This document shows, piece by piece, positions 2,803 to 31,379 of a DNA stretch of 64,000 bases; the first letter of the stretch is position 1; each line of letters starts with the position of its first letter. The notes under the pieces were generated by a model. That model searched no databases, had not been told where the DNA came from, and worked only from the letters and a program-made list of their open reading frames with translations. Position numbers and translations under genes: made by a program. The stretch spans positions 124,001 to 188,000 of the forward strand of contig NZ_CP024047.1 in the NCBI RefSeq assembly GCF_003430825.1, written 5' to 3'. Source of the DNA: Natrarchaeobaculum sulfurireducens. GTDB lineage: Archaea; Halobacteriota; Halobacteria; Halobacteriales; Natrialbaceae.

Positions 2803-2972
2803 GCGTTGGCCACAGTTCGTGGGTCCAGCCGAAAAACGTCTCGGTCGGAACCAGGGCCGTAGCGCCGACCCGGTCGGTACTGACGACGGACGCTGCGGTA
2901 TGACGTCACACAGGGCGTGCTCGAGTCGTAACGTATTTGAGTCGCACCCGGCCTACTAGTGGTTGCAAGCGT

Positions 2973-3045
2973 GTCCGGGTTGGGGTAGTGGTTATCCTTC
3001 AGCCTTGTGGAGGCTGAGACGCGGGTTCGATTCTCGCACCCGGAC
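2973..3045 (+). tRNA. tRNA-His (GTG)
   Basis: The cloverleaf is clear: an encoded G-1 at 2973 pairs with C73 at 3045 (the tRNA-His identity pair). The acceptor is 2974-2980 with 3038-3044, the anticodon stem is CAGCC/GGCTG with loop TTGTGGA (anticodon GTG), and the T-arm is GCGGGTTCGATTCTCGC. A T-run at 3047-3051 follows directly. Its 3' end is repeated three more times downstream. Confidence 0.97.
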
Positions 3046-3379
3046 CTTTTTACGACAAACGACGTGAGGAGTGAAAAAGCCGGAAGACGAGGCCGAACCA
3101 GACGAGTCGCGCGGAGCGAAGCGAACGCGTCTCGGCGAGGTTCGATTCTCGCACCCGGATGTTCTGCGGCGAACAACATCGTGAGCCGCGGAAGCCCCCA
3201 GAGAATCGAATCAGAGAGTGAAGTGACCGAAACGAACGGAACGACCGTGGTTCGGTTCTCGCACCCGGATGTTCTGCGGCGAACAACATCGTGAGCCGCG
3301 GAAGCCCCCAGAGAATCGAATCAGAGAGTGAAGTGACCGAAACGAACGGAACGACCGTGGTTCGATTCTCGCACCCGGA
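3024..3379 (+). repeat. Array of four copies of the tRNA-His 3' end, partly 110-bp tandem units
   Basis: The last 21 nt of tRNA-His (GGTTCGATTC..CACCCGGA) recur at 3139-3159, 3249-3269 (one change, A to G) and 3359-3379. Copies 2, 3 and 4 are 110 bp apart, and the intervening sequence of the two units (3161-3248 and 3271-3358) is identical. Each unit also carries GAGAATCGAA (near 3311-3320 and one period earlier), the inverse of TTCGATTCTC in the T-arm. The stretch between copies 1 and 2 is different and carries the GAACCAGACGAG module shared with the tRNA-Phe and tRNA-Val loci. Confidence 0.95.
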
Positions 3380-3678
3380 CGTTCTGCAGCGACTGGCCCC
3401 TCGAATCACGGGAGCCCATGCGACAGATGCGAGACGATCGACGCGGATCTCCCAGGCTGGACTCGGTGTACTCTCACCCTGGTGGCCGTCTTCTTCCACG
3501 GCCCTCGAGCCCGACGCGGCCCGCGACCGCGTTCTCGAGTCGGTTCACTCGAGTTCTGGTGTCACGCTCTCGGTGAACGTCTGGATGAATGCTTCCACGT
3601 AGTGGCTGTGCGCGCGTGAGTCTGTGTGGTCCGCCGTCGGCCACCGACGCTTATCCTCTTCGAGCGAAATGAGGGCGT
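3380..3678. other. Spacer without a recognisable gene
   Basis: This follows the tRNA-His repeat array up to the next start codon. Open frames are present on both strands, but their composition does not look like haloarchaeal protein and no family is recognisable. The sequence GCTTATCCTC at 3650-3659, about 25 nt before the ATG at 3679, could serve as a weak promoter element. Confidence 0.5.
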
Positions 3679-5518: not shown

Positions 5519-6065
5519 TCCGCAGTGTTCGGTGGGCCGATAGGGGCTGTCGCAATTCGGTATCGGTGATCGGGCCCTCGTTGGAGCGTCTACCGGTACC
5601 GGTGTAACGATTCGTCTGACGCAGTGGCTAGTTGCAATCGACCCGGAAGTAATCAGCGAGCTACCCTTGCGAAGCAACAACTAGACCGTTTGAAGGTTTT
5701 TCCGTCCGCAAGAGGCATCGACCAATCGTGATCCTAACAAGCCTGACAGGAAACAACCATTTCTATGAGTCTCCCGCATAAACTCGCTGCTTCTATGGCT
5801 CTGTCTTGAATTATGAATTACTAGAGGTCTGTTATTCAGACTCTTAATCGCCCATCCGGACGCTACTAAACGCTGTACACACGTGTATCGAGTTTATCAG
5901 CTCGGATACTATAAACATGCATATTTATCATGGGGTACGAATTACTCACATGATACCCCTTCCCGGGGCCGTCGGTGCTGACGATCCGTCGGTGAGGTGC
6001 TGACCGGTGTTTCCGCGTACCGCTCGCGAACTACCCTCTCCCAACAGACAATCCCCAAGACAACA
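5519..6065. other. Long upstream region and leader of the surface glycoprotein gene
   Basis: About 545 nt without a gene, and AT-richer than its surroundings from about 5690. ACTATAAAC (5908-5916) and GCATATTTATC (5919-5929) are TATA candidates, which would give a leader of roughly 110-125 nt, unusually long for this organism but known for S-layer genes. A short inverted pair GGGGTA (5932-5937) / TACCCC (5954-5959) lies over the predicted start of transcription. Confidence 0.5.
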
Positions 6066-9000
6066 ATGAACGATACGAGGTCATATCACGACATGAGACG
6101 CGCGGTGGTTCTAGCTGCGATGATGACACTCTCGCTGGTGGCAATGTCCACCACGCTTGCCGGCGCTGCGGCGGCTTCGACTAGCAGTGAAGTCGAGTAC
6201 GTTGACGCCTACAACTCGAGTGCAAGCGTCATCTTCCAGGGCCAAGACGTATATATCGTCGGTGAGGCGGTCGACGAGGACCCAGATGCAACCTTCCAGC
6301 TCCGTTCTGTCGACTCGTTCGATGGCGGGGACGTCGACAGCAGTAGCTTCGAAGAAGAACTGCAAGCCGAGTGGGTCGGCTACGACGAACTCGCTCTCGA
6401 GGTCGATCCGAGCGATACTGGGCTGCCAACATCGGAAAACCCCGACGACGACGATGACGTTTGGGCTATCGAAGTCGATACCAGCGGCCTCGACGCTGGT
6501 GATTACTTCGTCCGCGGTGGTGAACTCGAGTCCAGTCCAGCCCAGGAGGATACCTTCGAAGTGACCGAACAGGGCTTTAGTGCCACATTCGACGACGACG
6601 AAGTGACCGACGACGGTGCTGAGTCCACGACGGAACTCGATATCGACTCCGACCGCGGCACTTACTCGGTCACCGTGAGTGCCGACGGCGATCTCGACGA
6701 CGACGAACTCCTTCGGACCGTCTTCGAAGAGTCCGATAGCGATGCCGGTGTCTTCTTCGCGGAGGTCTCGTACTTCCTCGACAACGCCTCCGACTCGGAG
6801 GTCGGCTACGATGGCCCGACCGACCTCGAGTGGGGTGACGACGACTACGGTGACGTCGTCGACGCGCTCCGTGCGGCTGGCGGTGTCTTCGAAACCGACG
6901 CCAACGATAACCCCGTTCTCGACGAGGACTTCGTCGACGACGTAACCGACAATAGCGACTATAGCGACGAAGCCGACGTCGTCGAAGCCGTCACCTTCGG
7001 TGACTTCGACGTCGGGCTCTGGGCGGCCGACGAGGACGACGCCGACGAGTCGATCGTCTTCGTCGAGCTATCCGACACCGACGCGGACGTCGACTTCGAC
7101 GGCATCGACGACAGTGACTACACGTTCGAGTTCAGCGTGACCGATACCGCCGCGTCGGACGAGCAGGATATTTCCGTCCTAGACTCCGATGTCGAGGCGA
7201 ACTTCGACGATAGCGTCTACACACAGACGGCTGGCGATCCGGTTCATCTTACGGTAGAGTTCGACGATACCGACGACGCCTATCTCGTCTTCGGTGACGA
7301 GGACGTTGGTTTCGTCGACATCGTCTACGTCGAAGACGACACCGGTAGCGGGATGGCCAACGTGACGCTCAACCCCCGACTGATGGGCATGGGTAACGGC
7401 TACGCGAGCGTCGACTCCGAGGACGAGGTGGTGAGCCTACTCGACGAAATCGACCTCGATAACCCCATCGAGTGGGTCGACAACCACCACCACACTGACG
7501 ACGATCTTCCCGAGCCGTTCGATGACCTCGAGTTCTACGACGACGGCGACATGGACGCGACCGACCGGGTAAGCTTCGTCGAATTCCTCGAAGAGCTCGA
7601 GCTCATCGACGATCCGGTCGACCAGCCTCACGACCTCTTCGAGTGGGAAACCATTGATCCTGATACGGGCAATCCAGCCCCAGACGGTGTAGACGTGATC
7701 ACTGGCGTCAACGAGGACACTGGCGACATCGCGTACAACCAGCTCGTGCGGCCGCTGCAGCCGACCGATTACCCGCTCGCGAGCACCGATGACGGTGTGC
7801 TCGTCGCCGACAGCGGTGAACTCGATGTCGACGACGAACTCGACGCGGCGAGAGTCGACCTGACTCAGCCCGGACTCGGCGAGGTCGAAACGATGGTCGC
7901 ACCAGAAGACGATGCCGACGCACACGAACTCGAGGAGTTCCTCGATCCCGAGATCGAAGAGGCGACGCCGACGCCACGAACCGGCATCGCCGAAGATGAC
8001 CGGCTGATCGTCCGGGCGGAAATGTCCGGTGTCTACGGCCTCATGGTTGGAATCGCTGACGAGGGCGATTACGATCCGTTGATCGAAGACGGGTTTAAGC
8101 CCCATGTGATCCACGAACTCAACGAGTACGACGGCGAAGGGGTCACGCTTGAGATCGAAGAAACCGAGACGACGGGCAACCAGGACCCGAACCGCGTTGA
8201 CTTCGAGAACGCCGACAAGGACGAGGTCGTCGCCTTCGGCAACCATCTCGACGGTGAACTGTACATCGTCGTCGATACGAGCGCGTCTGATGCGTTCACC
8301 CGCGACTACGAGGACGGCGATACCTTCGAGGCAACGATCGAGTACGAAGCAGACACCGATGACAGCTTCTACTTCTACGGTCCGGACAGCCTCATCGAGC
8401 TCATTGCGGACAGGTATCCTGGCGGATACGATGTGACGCCTGATGGAATGCCGTGGCGAGGCGATGCGGGTGAGCACACGACCCGTGATCCAGCCTATCC
8501 GTACTTCGAACCTGGAGAGTCCCAGACTATCACTACCGAGTTCGATATGGTCGACCGAGACGTCGGGTTCCACGCACTCGACGCGGACGACGCCGTCCAG
8601 CTCGAGACCGACGACGAGGCCGTCGTCTCGGGCGAGACGAACGTTGCACCTGGTTCGTCCGTCGACCTTCGGATCAGCAACGCCGGAGAGACCGAGAGCT
8701 TCCTGTCAACCGAAGATGCGGCGATCGATACTGACGGGTCGTGGGCGTCCGAACCGTTCGATTTCGACGACCGTGAGGACGGCGACGAAGCGACGCTCGA
8801 GTATCGCGTGGGTGGCAGTGCAATTGCCGACACTGACGGAATTTTCGTCGAAGAACTCGAGTCCGTCGACCCGGCCGACGACACCGCCGACGAACCGACG
8901 GATGACGGCGCTGACGATACTGACGATTCCGAGGCTGCCGACGCTGACGATGCCGGTGATTCCGACGCCGACGCTGCTGACGACACGACGGATGACACCG

Positions 9001-9149
9001 TTGATGAGGTGACTGACGAGGCTGATGCCGATGAATCCGATGATACGGCCACAGAGACCGAGGGTGACGGAATCCCTGGATTCGGTCTTACGGTTGCGAT
9101 CGTTGCGCTACTGGCTGTTGCCATGCTGACACGCCGTCGACAGCAGTAA
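6066..9149 (+). CDS. S-layer-type surface glycoprotein with PGF-CTERM anchor
   Basis: About 1027 residues. The ATG at 6066 gives a proper signal peptide (MNDTRSYHDMRRAVVLAAMM.. ending near AGAAAAS, residue 36), so it is preferred to the upstream frame opening. The mature start SEVEYVDAYNSSASVIFQGQ matches haloarchaeal surface glycoproteins. The body is very Asp/Glu-rich with several N-x-S/T sites. A Thr/Asp/Glu/Ala-rich stalk (about residues 935-1000) precedes GIPGFGLTVAIVALLAVAML-TRRRQQ, a PGF-CTERM sorting signal: archaeosortase A would cleave it and attach lipid. It is probably the S-layer protein or a close relative. Monocistronic. Confidence 0.9.
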   Translation: MNDTRSYHDMRRAVVLAAMMTLSLVAMSTTLAGAAAASTSSEVEYVDAYNSSASVIFQGQDVYIVGEAVDEDPDATFQLRSVDSFDGGDVDSSSFEEELQAEWVGYDELALEVDPSDTGLPTSENPDDDDDVWAIEVDTSGLDAGDYFVRGGELESSPAQEDTFEVTEQGFSATFDDDEVTDDGAESTTELDIDSDRGTYSVTVSADGDLDDDELLRTVFEESDSDAGVFFAEVSYFLDNASDSEVGYDGPTDLEWGDDDYGDVVDALRAAGGVFETDANDNPVLDEDFVDDVTDNSDYSDEADVVEAVTFGDFDVGLWAADEDDADESIVFVELSDTDADVDFDGIDDSDYTFEFSVTDTAASDEQDISVLDSDVEANFDDSVYTQTAGDPVHLTVEFDDTDDAYLVFGDEDVGFVDIVYVEDDTGSGMANVTLNPRLMGMGNGYASVDSEDEVVSLLDEIDLDNPIEWVDNHHHTDDDLPEPFDDLEFYDDGDMDATDRVSFVEFLEELELIDDPVDQPHDLFEWETIDPDTGNPAPDGVDVITGVNEDTGDIAYNQLVRPLQPTDYPLASTDDGVLVADSGELDVDDELDAARVDLTQPGLGEVETMVAPEDDADAHELEEFLDPEIEEATPTPRTGIAEDDRLIVRAEMSGVYGLMVGIADEGDYDPLIEDGFKPHVIHELNEYDGEGVTLEIEETETTGNQDPNRVDFENADKDEVVAFGNHLDGELYIVVDTSASDAFTRDYEDGDTFEATIEYEADTDDSFYFYGPDSLIELIADRYPGGYDVTPDGMPWRGDAGEHTTRDPAYPYFEPGESQTITTEFDMVDRDVGFHALDADDAVQLETDDEAVVSGETNVAPGSSVDLRISNAGETESFLSTEDAAIDTDGSWASEPFDFDDREDGDEATLEYRVGGSAIADTDGIFVEELESVDPADDTADEPTDDGADDTDDSEAADADDAGDSDADAADDTTDDTVDEVTDEADADESDDTATETEGDGIPGFGLTVAIVALLAVAMLTRRRQQ

Positions 9150-11794: not shown

Positions 11795-11973
11795 TAGGAG
11801 CGTTCGCTCACAGACCGTCCCTCGATCCGATCGCCATCCTGCTGGAGTGGTCGCTTCTCGGCAGCTTCGTGTCCACAGTACCCGACTTCTCGAGAGCGTA
11901 GCGAGCGGGACCGGGGACAGCTTGACCGTCGGTCGAGCGCTCCCGTTGGAATAGAGATCGTGTGGAAACCCCA
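11795..11973. other. Spacer between MITE-like repeat and tRNA-Phe tail copy
   Basis: No gene was recognised; the open frames here lack any family resemblance. The tRNA-Phe tail copy begins at its right edge. Confidence 0.4.
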
Positions 11974-12056
11974 TGCCACCTCCCGAATTTGAACCTCGCC
12001 GAGACAGTTGTGCTCGCTCATCTCCTTCGTTGTACGCACTGTAACTCGTCTGGTTC
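11974..12056 (-). repeat. tRNA-Phe 3'-end copy plus shared hairpin module
   Basis: TGCCACCTCCCGAATTTGAA at 11974-11993 (plus strand) is a diverged copy (two mismatches) of the tRNA-Phe 3' end at 12128-12147, displaced about 154 bp downstream of the gene. Reading the tRNA sense strand, the stretch before it begins TTGAACCAGACGAGT (inverse of 12044-12058) and ends GTCTCGGCGAGGTTC (inverse of 11991-12005). This is the same module as at tRNA-His and close to that at tRNA-Val. GAACC/GGTTC, AGAC/GTCT and AGTT/AACT can pair. Confidence 0.8.
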
Positions 12057-12127
12057 AACTCCGCTCGAGAGCAGGTCTGTGACTCACGAACGACTCGCTT
12101 CGCTCGTCGTCTTGTTCGTCACAAAAG

Positions 12128-12201
12128 TGCCGCCTCCCGGATTTGAACCGGGGACAGCTCGATCTTCAGTCGAGTGCTCTCCCAGTCTGAGCTAAGGCGG
12201 C
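12128..12201 (-). tRNA. tRNA-Phe (GAA)
   Basis: On the minus strand, acceptor GCCGCCT pairs with AGGCGGC, followed by discriminator A. The anticodon stem-loop is CTCGA-CTGAAGA-TCGAG (anticodon GAA), and the T-arm CCCCGGTTCAAATCCGGGA is intact. It is followed on its own strand by a TTTTGTGACGAAC trailer. Confidence 0.97.
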
Positions 12202-12992: not shown

Positions 12993-13067
12993 GTGGGCTC
13001 GGGCGGATTCGAACCTCGTCCAGACGGTCGGCCTCACTCCGTTCGGCCGCTGCGACTGGTCTGGTTC
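12993..13067 (-). repeat. tRNA-Val 3'-end copy plus shared hairpin module
   Basis: The plus-strand sequence GTGGGCTCGG-GCGGATTCGAACC at 12993-13015 exactly repeats the 3' end of tRNA-Val at 13121-13143, 128 bp away on the downstream side of the gene. On the tRNA sense strand the stretch between them contains GAACCAGACCAGT (inverse of 13055-13067) and ends GTCTGGACGAGGTTC (inverse of 13011-13025), matching the modules at tRNA-His and tRNA-Phe. A GGCC-11 nt-GGCC hairpin lies inside. Confidence 0.9.
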
Positions 13068-13121
13068 GAACCGTCTTCGGTCCACGTACCTGCTGCTCGC
13101 GGGGTTGCTCACAGCAGGAAG

Positions 13122-13195
13122 TGGGCTCGGGCGGATTCGAACCACCGACCTCGGCCTTGTAAAGGCCGCGTCATAACCAACTAGACCACGAGCCC
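13122..13195 (-). tRNA. tRNA-Val (TAC)
   Basis: On the minus strand, acceptor GGGCTCG pairs with CGAGCCC, followed by discriminator A. The anticodon stem-loop is CGGCC-TTTACAA-GGCCG (anticodon TAC), with T-arm GGTGGTTCGAATCCGCC. The trailer on its own strand is CTTCCTGCTG, without a long T-run. Confidence 0.97.
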
Positions 13196-30402: not shown

Positions 30403-31156
30403 TTTTCAGCAACACTTCGGGATGAGCGTCTGCAACTGAGTCGTGTATAGAGAGGAAACCCCTTCTGGATCGAATCTATTGTTGGCTGTCGAGCGACCCA
30501 ACCGCTTGCTACCCTGGTCACCGATTTATCACCCGCAGTTTGACCCGGCCACTCGGTCGGTGCCTGTACCGAGCCTAGAGCGGCGGCGTTCGCTCGAGCT
30601 CATCGTGTGCCTGGCGCGCGCAATGAATTCTGCAATGTAAATCGTCGTTACCTGTTGCTTCGGCGTCCGTCGAGAAGCCGGCCGATAAGTCCAAGGTGTT
30701 CACCCCCTACGGTGAATACGCGCGGTACGGTGGGGCCGGCTTCGCACTATGGCGAGGCCGTTTCTGTGAGTGAGGGACCGATGACGTGGCAACGACAGCG
30801 CGTCCCTTCCTCGCCAGTTTGCGAGGTATGAGTCCCAAATATAAATATTTTGGCCGTGGCCAAACATCGTTCCCTGGTCTGCCGTGAGGTGGGTGTAAAC
30901 GCCCCAGTCATCAAATCGCTTCCAGTGAGACCGACGAACTCGATCTCGAGAGGGGGCACGGGTCACGGCTGTGCGCTATACTCCGACGGGTTTTAGCCGC
31001 CTGATCTATGTCGGGTCCCGATACAATCTACTCTGGGTATAGTTTGTGGACCCGGTCAACTCCTTCCTTGCTCACCACGCTCGTGGGGGCACGTCTTTCC
31101 CATGTCGTAATCGCTCTGGGCGGGCTGCTCTTCACGGTATTGCTCGTCGTAAAAGT
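30403..31156. other. 750-bp region without a recognisable protein gene
   Basis: Apart from shadow-like open frames, the visible structure is a hairpin TTCACC-CCCTAC-GGTGAA (30699-30716), a hairpin CCTCGC-CAGTTT-GCGAGG (30809-30826), an AT-rich AAATATAAATATTTT (30837-30851) and next to it a palindrome TTGGCCGTGGCCAA (30850-30863). The last two resemble a promoter with an operator, but no gene starts at a suitable place. Confidence 0.45.
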
Positions 31157-31257
31157 GGGCCGGGCGCGATTTGAACACGCGGTCGGATGTGCTCGTTCAC
31201 GGCGTCGCCGTTTGCGACCGCGCTCTCGCTGCGCGAACCCTCCCTGCGTTCAAATCC
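31157..31257 (-). repeat. tRNA-Lys 3'-end copy with inverted T-arm motif
   Basis: The 25 nt at 31157-31181 (GGGCCGGGCGCG-ATTTGAACACGCG) are identical to 31307-31331 in the tRNA-Lys gene, 150 bp further along the gene's downstream side. GCGTTCAAATCC at 31246-31257 is an inverted near-copy of the T-arm GATTTGAAC. On the tRNA sense strand the inverted motif comes first and the direct copy ends the unit, as at the other loci. The distal copy, not the gene, is followed by CACTTTTACGACGAGC, a trailer resembling those right after tRNA-His and tRNA-Phe. Confidence 0.92.
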
Positions 31258-31305
31258 GTCCGGTTCCGAGACTCACCGCTCGCGGATCTGCTCGCGGCGA
31301 GAATA

Positions 31306-31379
<74 letters not shown>

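Follow-up and report, generated by a model that had tools for sequence, protein, structure and literature searches.

Why should a tRNA gene be followed by repeated copies of its own 3′ end? The question is raised by a tRNA-His (GTG) gene of the haloarchaeon Natrarchaeobaculum sulfurireducens, identified by ARAGORN and Rfam (RF00005) at positions 2974–3046 (+) of the stretch analysed here (the window; 64,000 nt of contig NZ_CP024047.1, positions 124,001 to 188,000). An earlier examination of the letters of this stretch (the sequence-only reading) had claimed that the tail of this gene recurs three times downstream, and our search located GGTTCGATTCTCGCACCCGGA, the tRNA-His 3′ end, at position 3024 inside the tRNA and again at 3139, 3249 (1 mismatch) and 3359, against a chance expectation of 0.00 and 0 matches in 100 dinucleotide shuffles. 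The tails are spaced 115, 110 and 110 nt apart. It had also been claimed that the last two units are identical between the tails, and comparison of 3136–3245 with 3246–3355 confirmed this, the two segments being 98% identical with both of the 2 differences in 110 positions lying in or beside the tail. The further claim, that each unit carries an inverted T-arm, held for units 2 and 3, to which the clean GAGAATCGAA was confined (3201 and 3311), but only in a diverged form, GAGGCCGAACC, for unit 1.

The order of parts within a unit, of which there is hardly any doubt, is hairpin A, an inverted T-arm, hairpin B and a copy of the 3′ end of the host tRNA (bases 52–73), here called the echo. In the window array, all on the forward strand and with bases 52–73 of the tRNA-His as the source of the echoes, 1) unit 1 comprises a hairpin A of the T-run type (3046–3080; fold, the type being common to other genomes), the diverged inverted T-arm (3089–3099; pairing with the echo in the fold), a hairpin B of type B5 (3100–3138; sequence, fold and type comparison) and echo 1 (3139–3160), 2) unit 2 comprises a hairpin A of the GAAC..GTGA loop type (3162–3193; fold and covariation), the inverted T-arm GAGAATCGAATC (3201–3212), a hairpin B of the class-conserved type B1 (3213–3248; alignment A1 and a match of the covariance model described below at 127199–127270 of G000:C3) and echo 2 (3249–3270; 1 mismatch, in the T-loop), and 3) unit 3 comprises hairpin A (3272–3303; fold, z −3.3), an inverted T-arm (3311–3322), a second hairpin B of type B1 (3323–3358; covariance-model match, E 1.8e-17) and echo 3 (3359–3380), which is perfect including base 73. 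The inverted T-arms were assigned from the sequence and the echoes as sequence repeats. Scanning 2900–3500 with the 4227 covariance models of Rfam gave the tRNA itself as the sole match, the unit belonging to no known RNA family.

In its own 3-contig genome, the array unit matched the tRNA-His locus only. Among 125 genomes of the same family, tRNA-His was found in 122 and unit matches in 116, and most of the fetched tRNA-His loci had one to four tail copies about 100–125 nt apart; comparison of the locus across related genomes and a search for the unit, as the sequence-only reading had proposed, both returned homologous arrays of varying copy number in most of the family. All non-His matches of the unit were behind other tRNA genes. 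In a set of 182 distinct tRNA loci enriched for His, a copy of the gene's own tail was present within 260 nt downstream at 131 loci, as compared with 8 hits in 5060 tests with tails of other isotypes, and sampling of 30 tRNA genes from each of three families gave 17, 14 and 16 echo carriers (47/90), the isotypes varying between genomes. About half of the sampled haloarchaeal tRNA genes carry units. The view that such a locus is unusual, or special to tRNA-His, was therefore abandoned, many isotypes having units across the class; since the same architecture lies behind so many other tRNA genes, the sequence-only reading had understated the feature.

A covariance model was built from 32 inverted-arm/B1/tail pieces of about nine isotypes and describes one subtype; it matched 363 of 391 Halobacteria genomes (81 of 84 genera) and, in a phylum-wide sample of Halobacteriota, 23 of 28 Halobacteria but 0 of 118 others. 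All 70 inspected loci of this model, some of them at intron-containing tRNA-Trp, had a tRNA with the corresponding tail immediately before them, in one case a tRNA-Leu just beyond the fetched piece. Units apart from tRNA genes were also considered and rejected, as the apparent orphans turned out to belong to the intron-containing tRNA-Trp or to the tRNA-Leu outside the piece. It was noticed that three tRNA-Ala(TGC) genes of G000 (L174–L176), probably inside rRNA operons, have a common downstream sequence that never contains an echo, and that several genomes, mostly of genus g15 (L142–L149), have extra tRNA-His matches of 88–93% identity elsewhere in the genome, some of which ARAGORN labelled tRNA-??? 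with a four-base anticodon.

Units measured 54–239 nt between tails, mostly 80–150 nt, the longer ones holding nested hairpin insertions. Neither open reading frames nor integrase genes or their remains were found between the repeats, which hold about 110 nt of hairpins only. The units are modular, with two main types of hairpin A and several unrelated types of hairpin B (B1–B7), and behind non-His tRNAs the inverted piece and the echo both match the local tRNA, e.g. GGGATTTGAA...TTCAAATCCC after tRNA-Gly. With echoes located by their first 12 nt only, identity to the own tRNA was 84–100% across bases 52–73 and 89–97% at bases 52–53, and dropped outside this segment to 50% at the base after 73 and 30% before base 52. 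The acceptor part of the echo pairs with nothing in the unit, yet it is 84–95% identical to the tRNA. A hairpin function alone would not require this part to be retained; its retention in unpaired form is as an attachment core predicts, since sequence needed by the tRNA on the 3′ side of the crossover must be supplied. An inverted copy spanning the acceptor half was rejected, since the signal did not exceed that of the other-isotype or shuffled controls. In addition, a nested 49-nt double-hairpin insert (GTCATCGCGAACGGAGTGAGCGATGGCTCGGAGCAGC TTT GCTGCTCCG) was observed in the loop of hairpin A in tRNA-His units of L088, L098, L128, L049 and L063; it has a GNA loop itself and resembles a tiny mobile hairpin.

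Hairpin A differs in sequence from tRNA to tRNA, yet almost all of its pairs remain complementary, far more than in shuffled pairings. In the alignment of inverted arm, B1 and tail, 93.7% of the cells pair, in 8 of 21 pairs both partners have changed, and covariation scored 0.229, compared with 0.126 for shuffled and at most 0.07 for slid alignments. The copying process would by itself produce part of the outer stem; the inner pairs of B, however, covary as well. Hairpin B has the end pattern GA-RC-GNA-GY-GA; on the tRNA-sense strand 155 of 216 B loops were GNA (any middle base), closed by G-C in 85 cases and by A-T in 83, whereas the other strand had a total of 8 such motifs. Very stable DNA mini-hairpins as a rule have a GNA loop, in which any base may stand in the middle (PMC4686876). 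Folding was better on the tRNA-sense strand (217 units vs 42), and in good A stems G-T mismatches outnumbered A-C mismatches by 16 to 4. Taken together, the fold bias, the strand bias of the GNA loops and the G-T excess indicate that it is the tRNA-sense strand that folds, either as RNA or as single-stranded DNA.

Arrays varied in size from 1 to 7 units, and near-identical tandem units, present both in the window array and at other loci, bear out the earlier suggestion that units duplicate in tandem. The last echo is more decayed than the first (perfect in 13/30 vs 24/30). Base changes in tRNA-His were mirrored by the echoes in 32 of 38 cells; in genome L134, the inverted arm equals the echo and both differ from the changed tRNA. 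Types of B vary within one genus at the orthologous tRNA-His locus, B1 is near-identical on different tRNAs in three families, and in L013 (a B4 module) and L166 (a B1 module) exactly the segment from the inverted T-arm to the echo was found flipped.

The best reading of these data, which we hold with somewhat less than even confidence, is that the units are att-like (attachment site-like), hairpin-bearing recombination cassettes with a T-loop core; in its favour are the sharp edges of the echo, an acceptor part retained although unpaired, tandem copying, B modules that have flipped, and module turnover. It is also supported by the prevalence of own-tail copies over those of other isotypes, the greater decay of the last echo, the changes shared by tRNA and echoes, the 22-nt repeat of a Haloquadratum provirus (see below) and the GNA loops on the tRNA-sense strand. 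The 7-nt T-loop and the T-stem arms on either side of it would form the attachment core, and a cassette would join at the T-loop and supply its own bases 52–73, by which the tRNA would be restored and the old end left behind as an echo. Through the direct tails, units could be gained, lost or duplicated in tandem, while the inverted T-arm would serve as a second, inverted core through which B could be swapped or flipped, the region folding as tRNA-sense single strand. A putative recombinase would act in trans, and repeated recombination, together with selection on the tRNA, would maintain both the hairpins and the agreement of the unit with the tRNA. The stronger proposal, that this constitutes an archaeal class-wide system in which T-loop att sites at about half of the tRNA genes gain, shuffle and flip non-coding tRNA-sense cassettes of about 110 nt, the tRNA 3′ end being replaced at each insertion, seems to us rather unlikely.

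Several points weigh against recombination cassettes. Known tRNA-His elements recombine at the anticodon loop and not at the T-loop, as in the 22-nt tails of the array; a tendency of new units to enter next to the tRNA did not emerge (46 of 96 comparisons); and moving B modules between tRNAs with different tails needs inter-locus gene conversion beyond site-specific exchange. No units were found in viral contigs (searched with patterns of B1, B2 and B4) or phage records, full-size elements bounded by unit-type sequences were not encountered, and no recombinase was linked to the unit family; in the window, a Pfam scan of 9 open reading frames around the array yielded 0 recombinases and no intI. 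In addition, the covariation and the strand bias fit RNA as well as single-stranded DNA. The genes scanned around the array were of housekeeping type (CopG, DUF5814, CMD and Usp), and a plasmid search gave one weak partial match.

Alternatively, the unit may be part of the tRNA transcript, be released by tRNase Z and act as a structured trailer RNA (in processing, refolding or termination, or as a small RNA), the main rival explanation, which we regard as possible though doubtful; its companion proposal, that the inverted T-arm pairs with the T-arm of the tRNA or with the echo, the latter being a decoy that frees the tRNA, is possible to the same degree. Such an RNA is favoured by covariation at nearly every pair of hairpin A and by the doubly changed pairs of the inverted arm-B-tail alignment (8/21; 0.229 vs 0.126), by the excess of G-T over A-C (16 to 4) and the preference for tRNA-sense folding (217 vs 42), and by the conservation of B1 across Halobacteria. 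Published summaries also indicate that tRNA fragments of Haloferax come mostly from 3′ trailers: in Haloferax volcanii, 10 of the 11 fragments of Heyer et al. 2012 stem from pre-tRNA 3′ trailers (PMC3544259), and trailer fragments have northern support (PMC3432209). However, a trailer RNA does not account for the exact end of the echo at base 73 or for the retention of an acceptor part that is unpaired; tRNA and unit are often separated by a T-run (78/187 cases), which in Haloferax acts as a terminator signal (PMC7237163); about half of the tRNA genes are without unit, presence being patchy by isotype; and no Rfam family matches the unit. Recombination cassettes and trailer RNA can both be true.

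It is improbable that no dedicated system is involved, i.e., that slippage during replication, or template switching in hairpins, produced the tail copies and that ordinary gene conversion in the polyploid cells has kept them similar. General recombination can account for tandem duplication, for inversion of a segment flanked by inverted repeats and for concerted evolution, but the sharp edges at bases 52 and 73, the constant anatomy on many isotypes, the class-wide conservation of B1 and its absence from the 118 related non-haloarchaeal genomes are hard to obtain by error alone, and 22 bp of homology is short for conversion. Very improbable is the origin of the array as nested attachment scars of ordinary proviruses. 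The sequence-only reading had offered attachment scars or a structured RNA, and of this proposal att-like ends and structured repeats have gained evidence, whereas nested scars of ordinary integrations have not. The echo length of 22 nt does equal that of the tRNA repeat left by one Haloquadratum provirus at tRNA-Ala (PMC3119063), from which it follows that T-loop-type ends exist in Halobacteria; however, the elements observed at tRNA-His, in G008 and G030, have a repeat of about 43 nt starting in the anticodon loop, the same as the 43-nt repeat of Haloquadratum genomic island 3 (PMC3119063), and have displaced the old array. Besides, decayed scars would not share covarying hairpins and a constant anatomy across isotypes and the class. 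Finally, an assembly artefact, to which near-identical tandem units (two here) are prone, has practically no probability, since homologous arrays follow tRNA-His in most of the 125 family genomes and occur in independent assemblies of many species.

Separately, an element in G008 appears to have split tRNA-His at the anticodon loop (L146, G008:C3:56632–60985, and L074, G008:C22), a 43-nt 3′ part together with a four-unit array being located on another contig. In L044 and L129, tyrosine-integrase-like genes begin right after tRNA-His and the array is missing nearby.

Among known systems, integron arrays (attI/attC) are alike in having tandem units behind a fixed site, with a unit end formed by an imperfect inverted repeat around a variable hairpin, and the core GTT of attC is resembled by the core read GTTC in the haloarchaeal echo. 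Unlike integrons, the haloarchaeal array has neither an integrase gene in cis nor open reading frames, its fixed site is a tRNA T-arm and its stable folded strand is the tRNA-sense strand. The tRNA att sites of archaeal integrative elements (tyrosine recombinases) are like the units in that the tRNA 3′ end is directly repeated up to its mature terminus and, in one haloarchaeal provirus, in the 22-nt tRNA repeat (PMC3119063). The haloarchaeal unit differs in its length of about 110 nt, its lack of genes, its inverted T-arm and its conserved hairpins, in being found on about half of the tRNA genes, and in its disagreement with the 43-nt tRNA-His scars. The units resemble att and integron sites in parts, but defining features of both families, when tested, were not found in them. 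The pre-tRNA 3′ trailers of Haloferax volcanii also lie directly behind the tRNA and yield stable small RNAs (PMC3544259, PMC3432209), but the published summaries consulted mention no own-end echo, inverted T-arm or array. Repetitive extragenic palindromes, bacterial interspersed mosaic elements (REP/BIME) and repeats like miniature inverted-repeat transposable elements (MITE) are likewise short, non-coding, hairpin-forming and multi-copy; in contrast, the haloarchaeal units are strictly tRNA-bound (70/70 loci) and not dispersed, are oriented with the tRNA and correspond at their ends to the local tRNA.

Neither Rfam nor the open-access literature searched yielded a report of tRNA genes trailed by both a copy and a mirror image of their own end; earlier mention for single genomes is possible elsewhere, and the class-wide pattern of tRNA-trailing cassettes appears to be undescribed. 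If true, it would be an overlooked basic feature of tRNA genes in a well-studied archaeal class, many of which carry a copy and mirror image of their own 3′ end, and would bear on the evolution of tRNA ends, as a source of concerted change, on tRNA genes as hot spots of mobile DNA and on the role of pre-tRNA trailers. The covariance model and the anatomy make the pattern directly testable in Haloferax volcanii by genetics and RNA-seq.

Three further tRNA genes of the window, all on the reverse strand, are each followed by one unit. These are 1) tRNA-Val (13121–13195; with unit, 12994–13195), with an inverted T-arm at 13065–13074, a GNA hairpin at 13033–13044 and a perfect echo at 12994–13013, 2) tRNA-Phe (12127–12201; with unit, 11974–12201), with a GNA hairpin at 12094–12105, an inverted T-arm at 12054–12063 and an echo with 2 mismatches at 11974–11993, and 3) tRNA-Lys (31306–31379; with unit, 31156–31379), with an inverted T-arm at 31249–31258 and an echo at 31156–31175. 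The GARCGNAGYGAG motif occurs three times in the whole 64 kb window, two of the occurrences being inside the units of these three tRNAs. Past the echo of tRNA-Phe, a GNA hairpin motif was noticed on the opposite strand (11894–11905, +), possibly a second unit, inverted or decayed. Elsewhere in the window, 5997–9149 (+) encodes an acidic-rich protein of 1050 aa with a PGF-CTERM motif, likely a surface glycoprotein.
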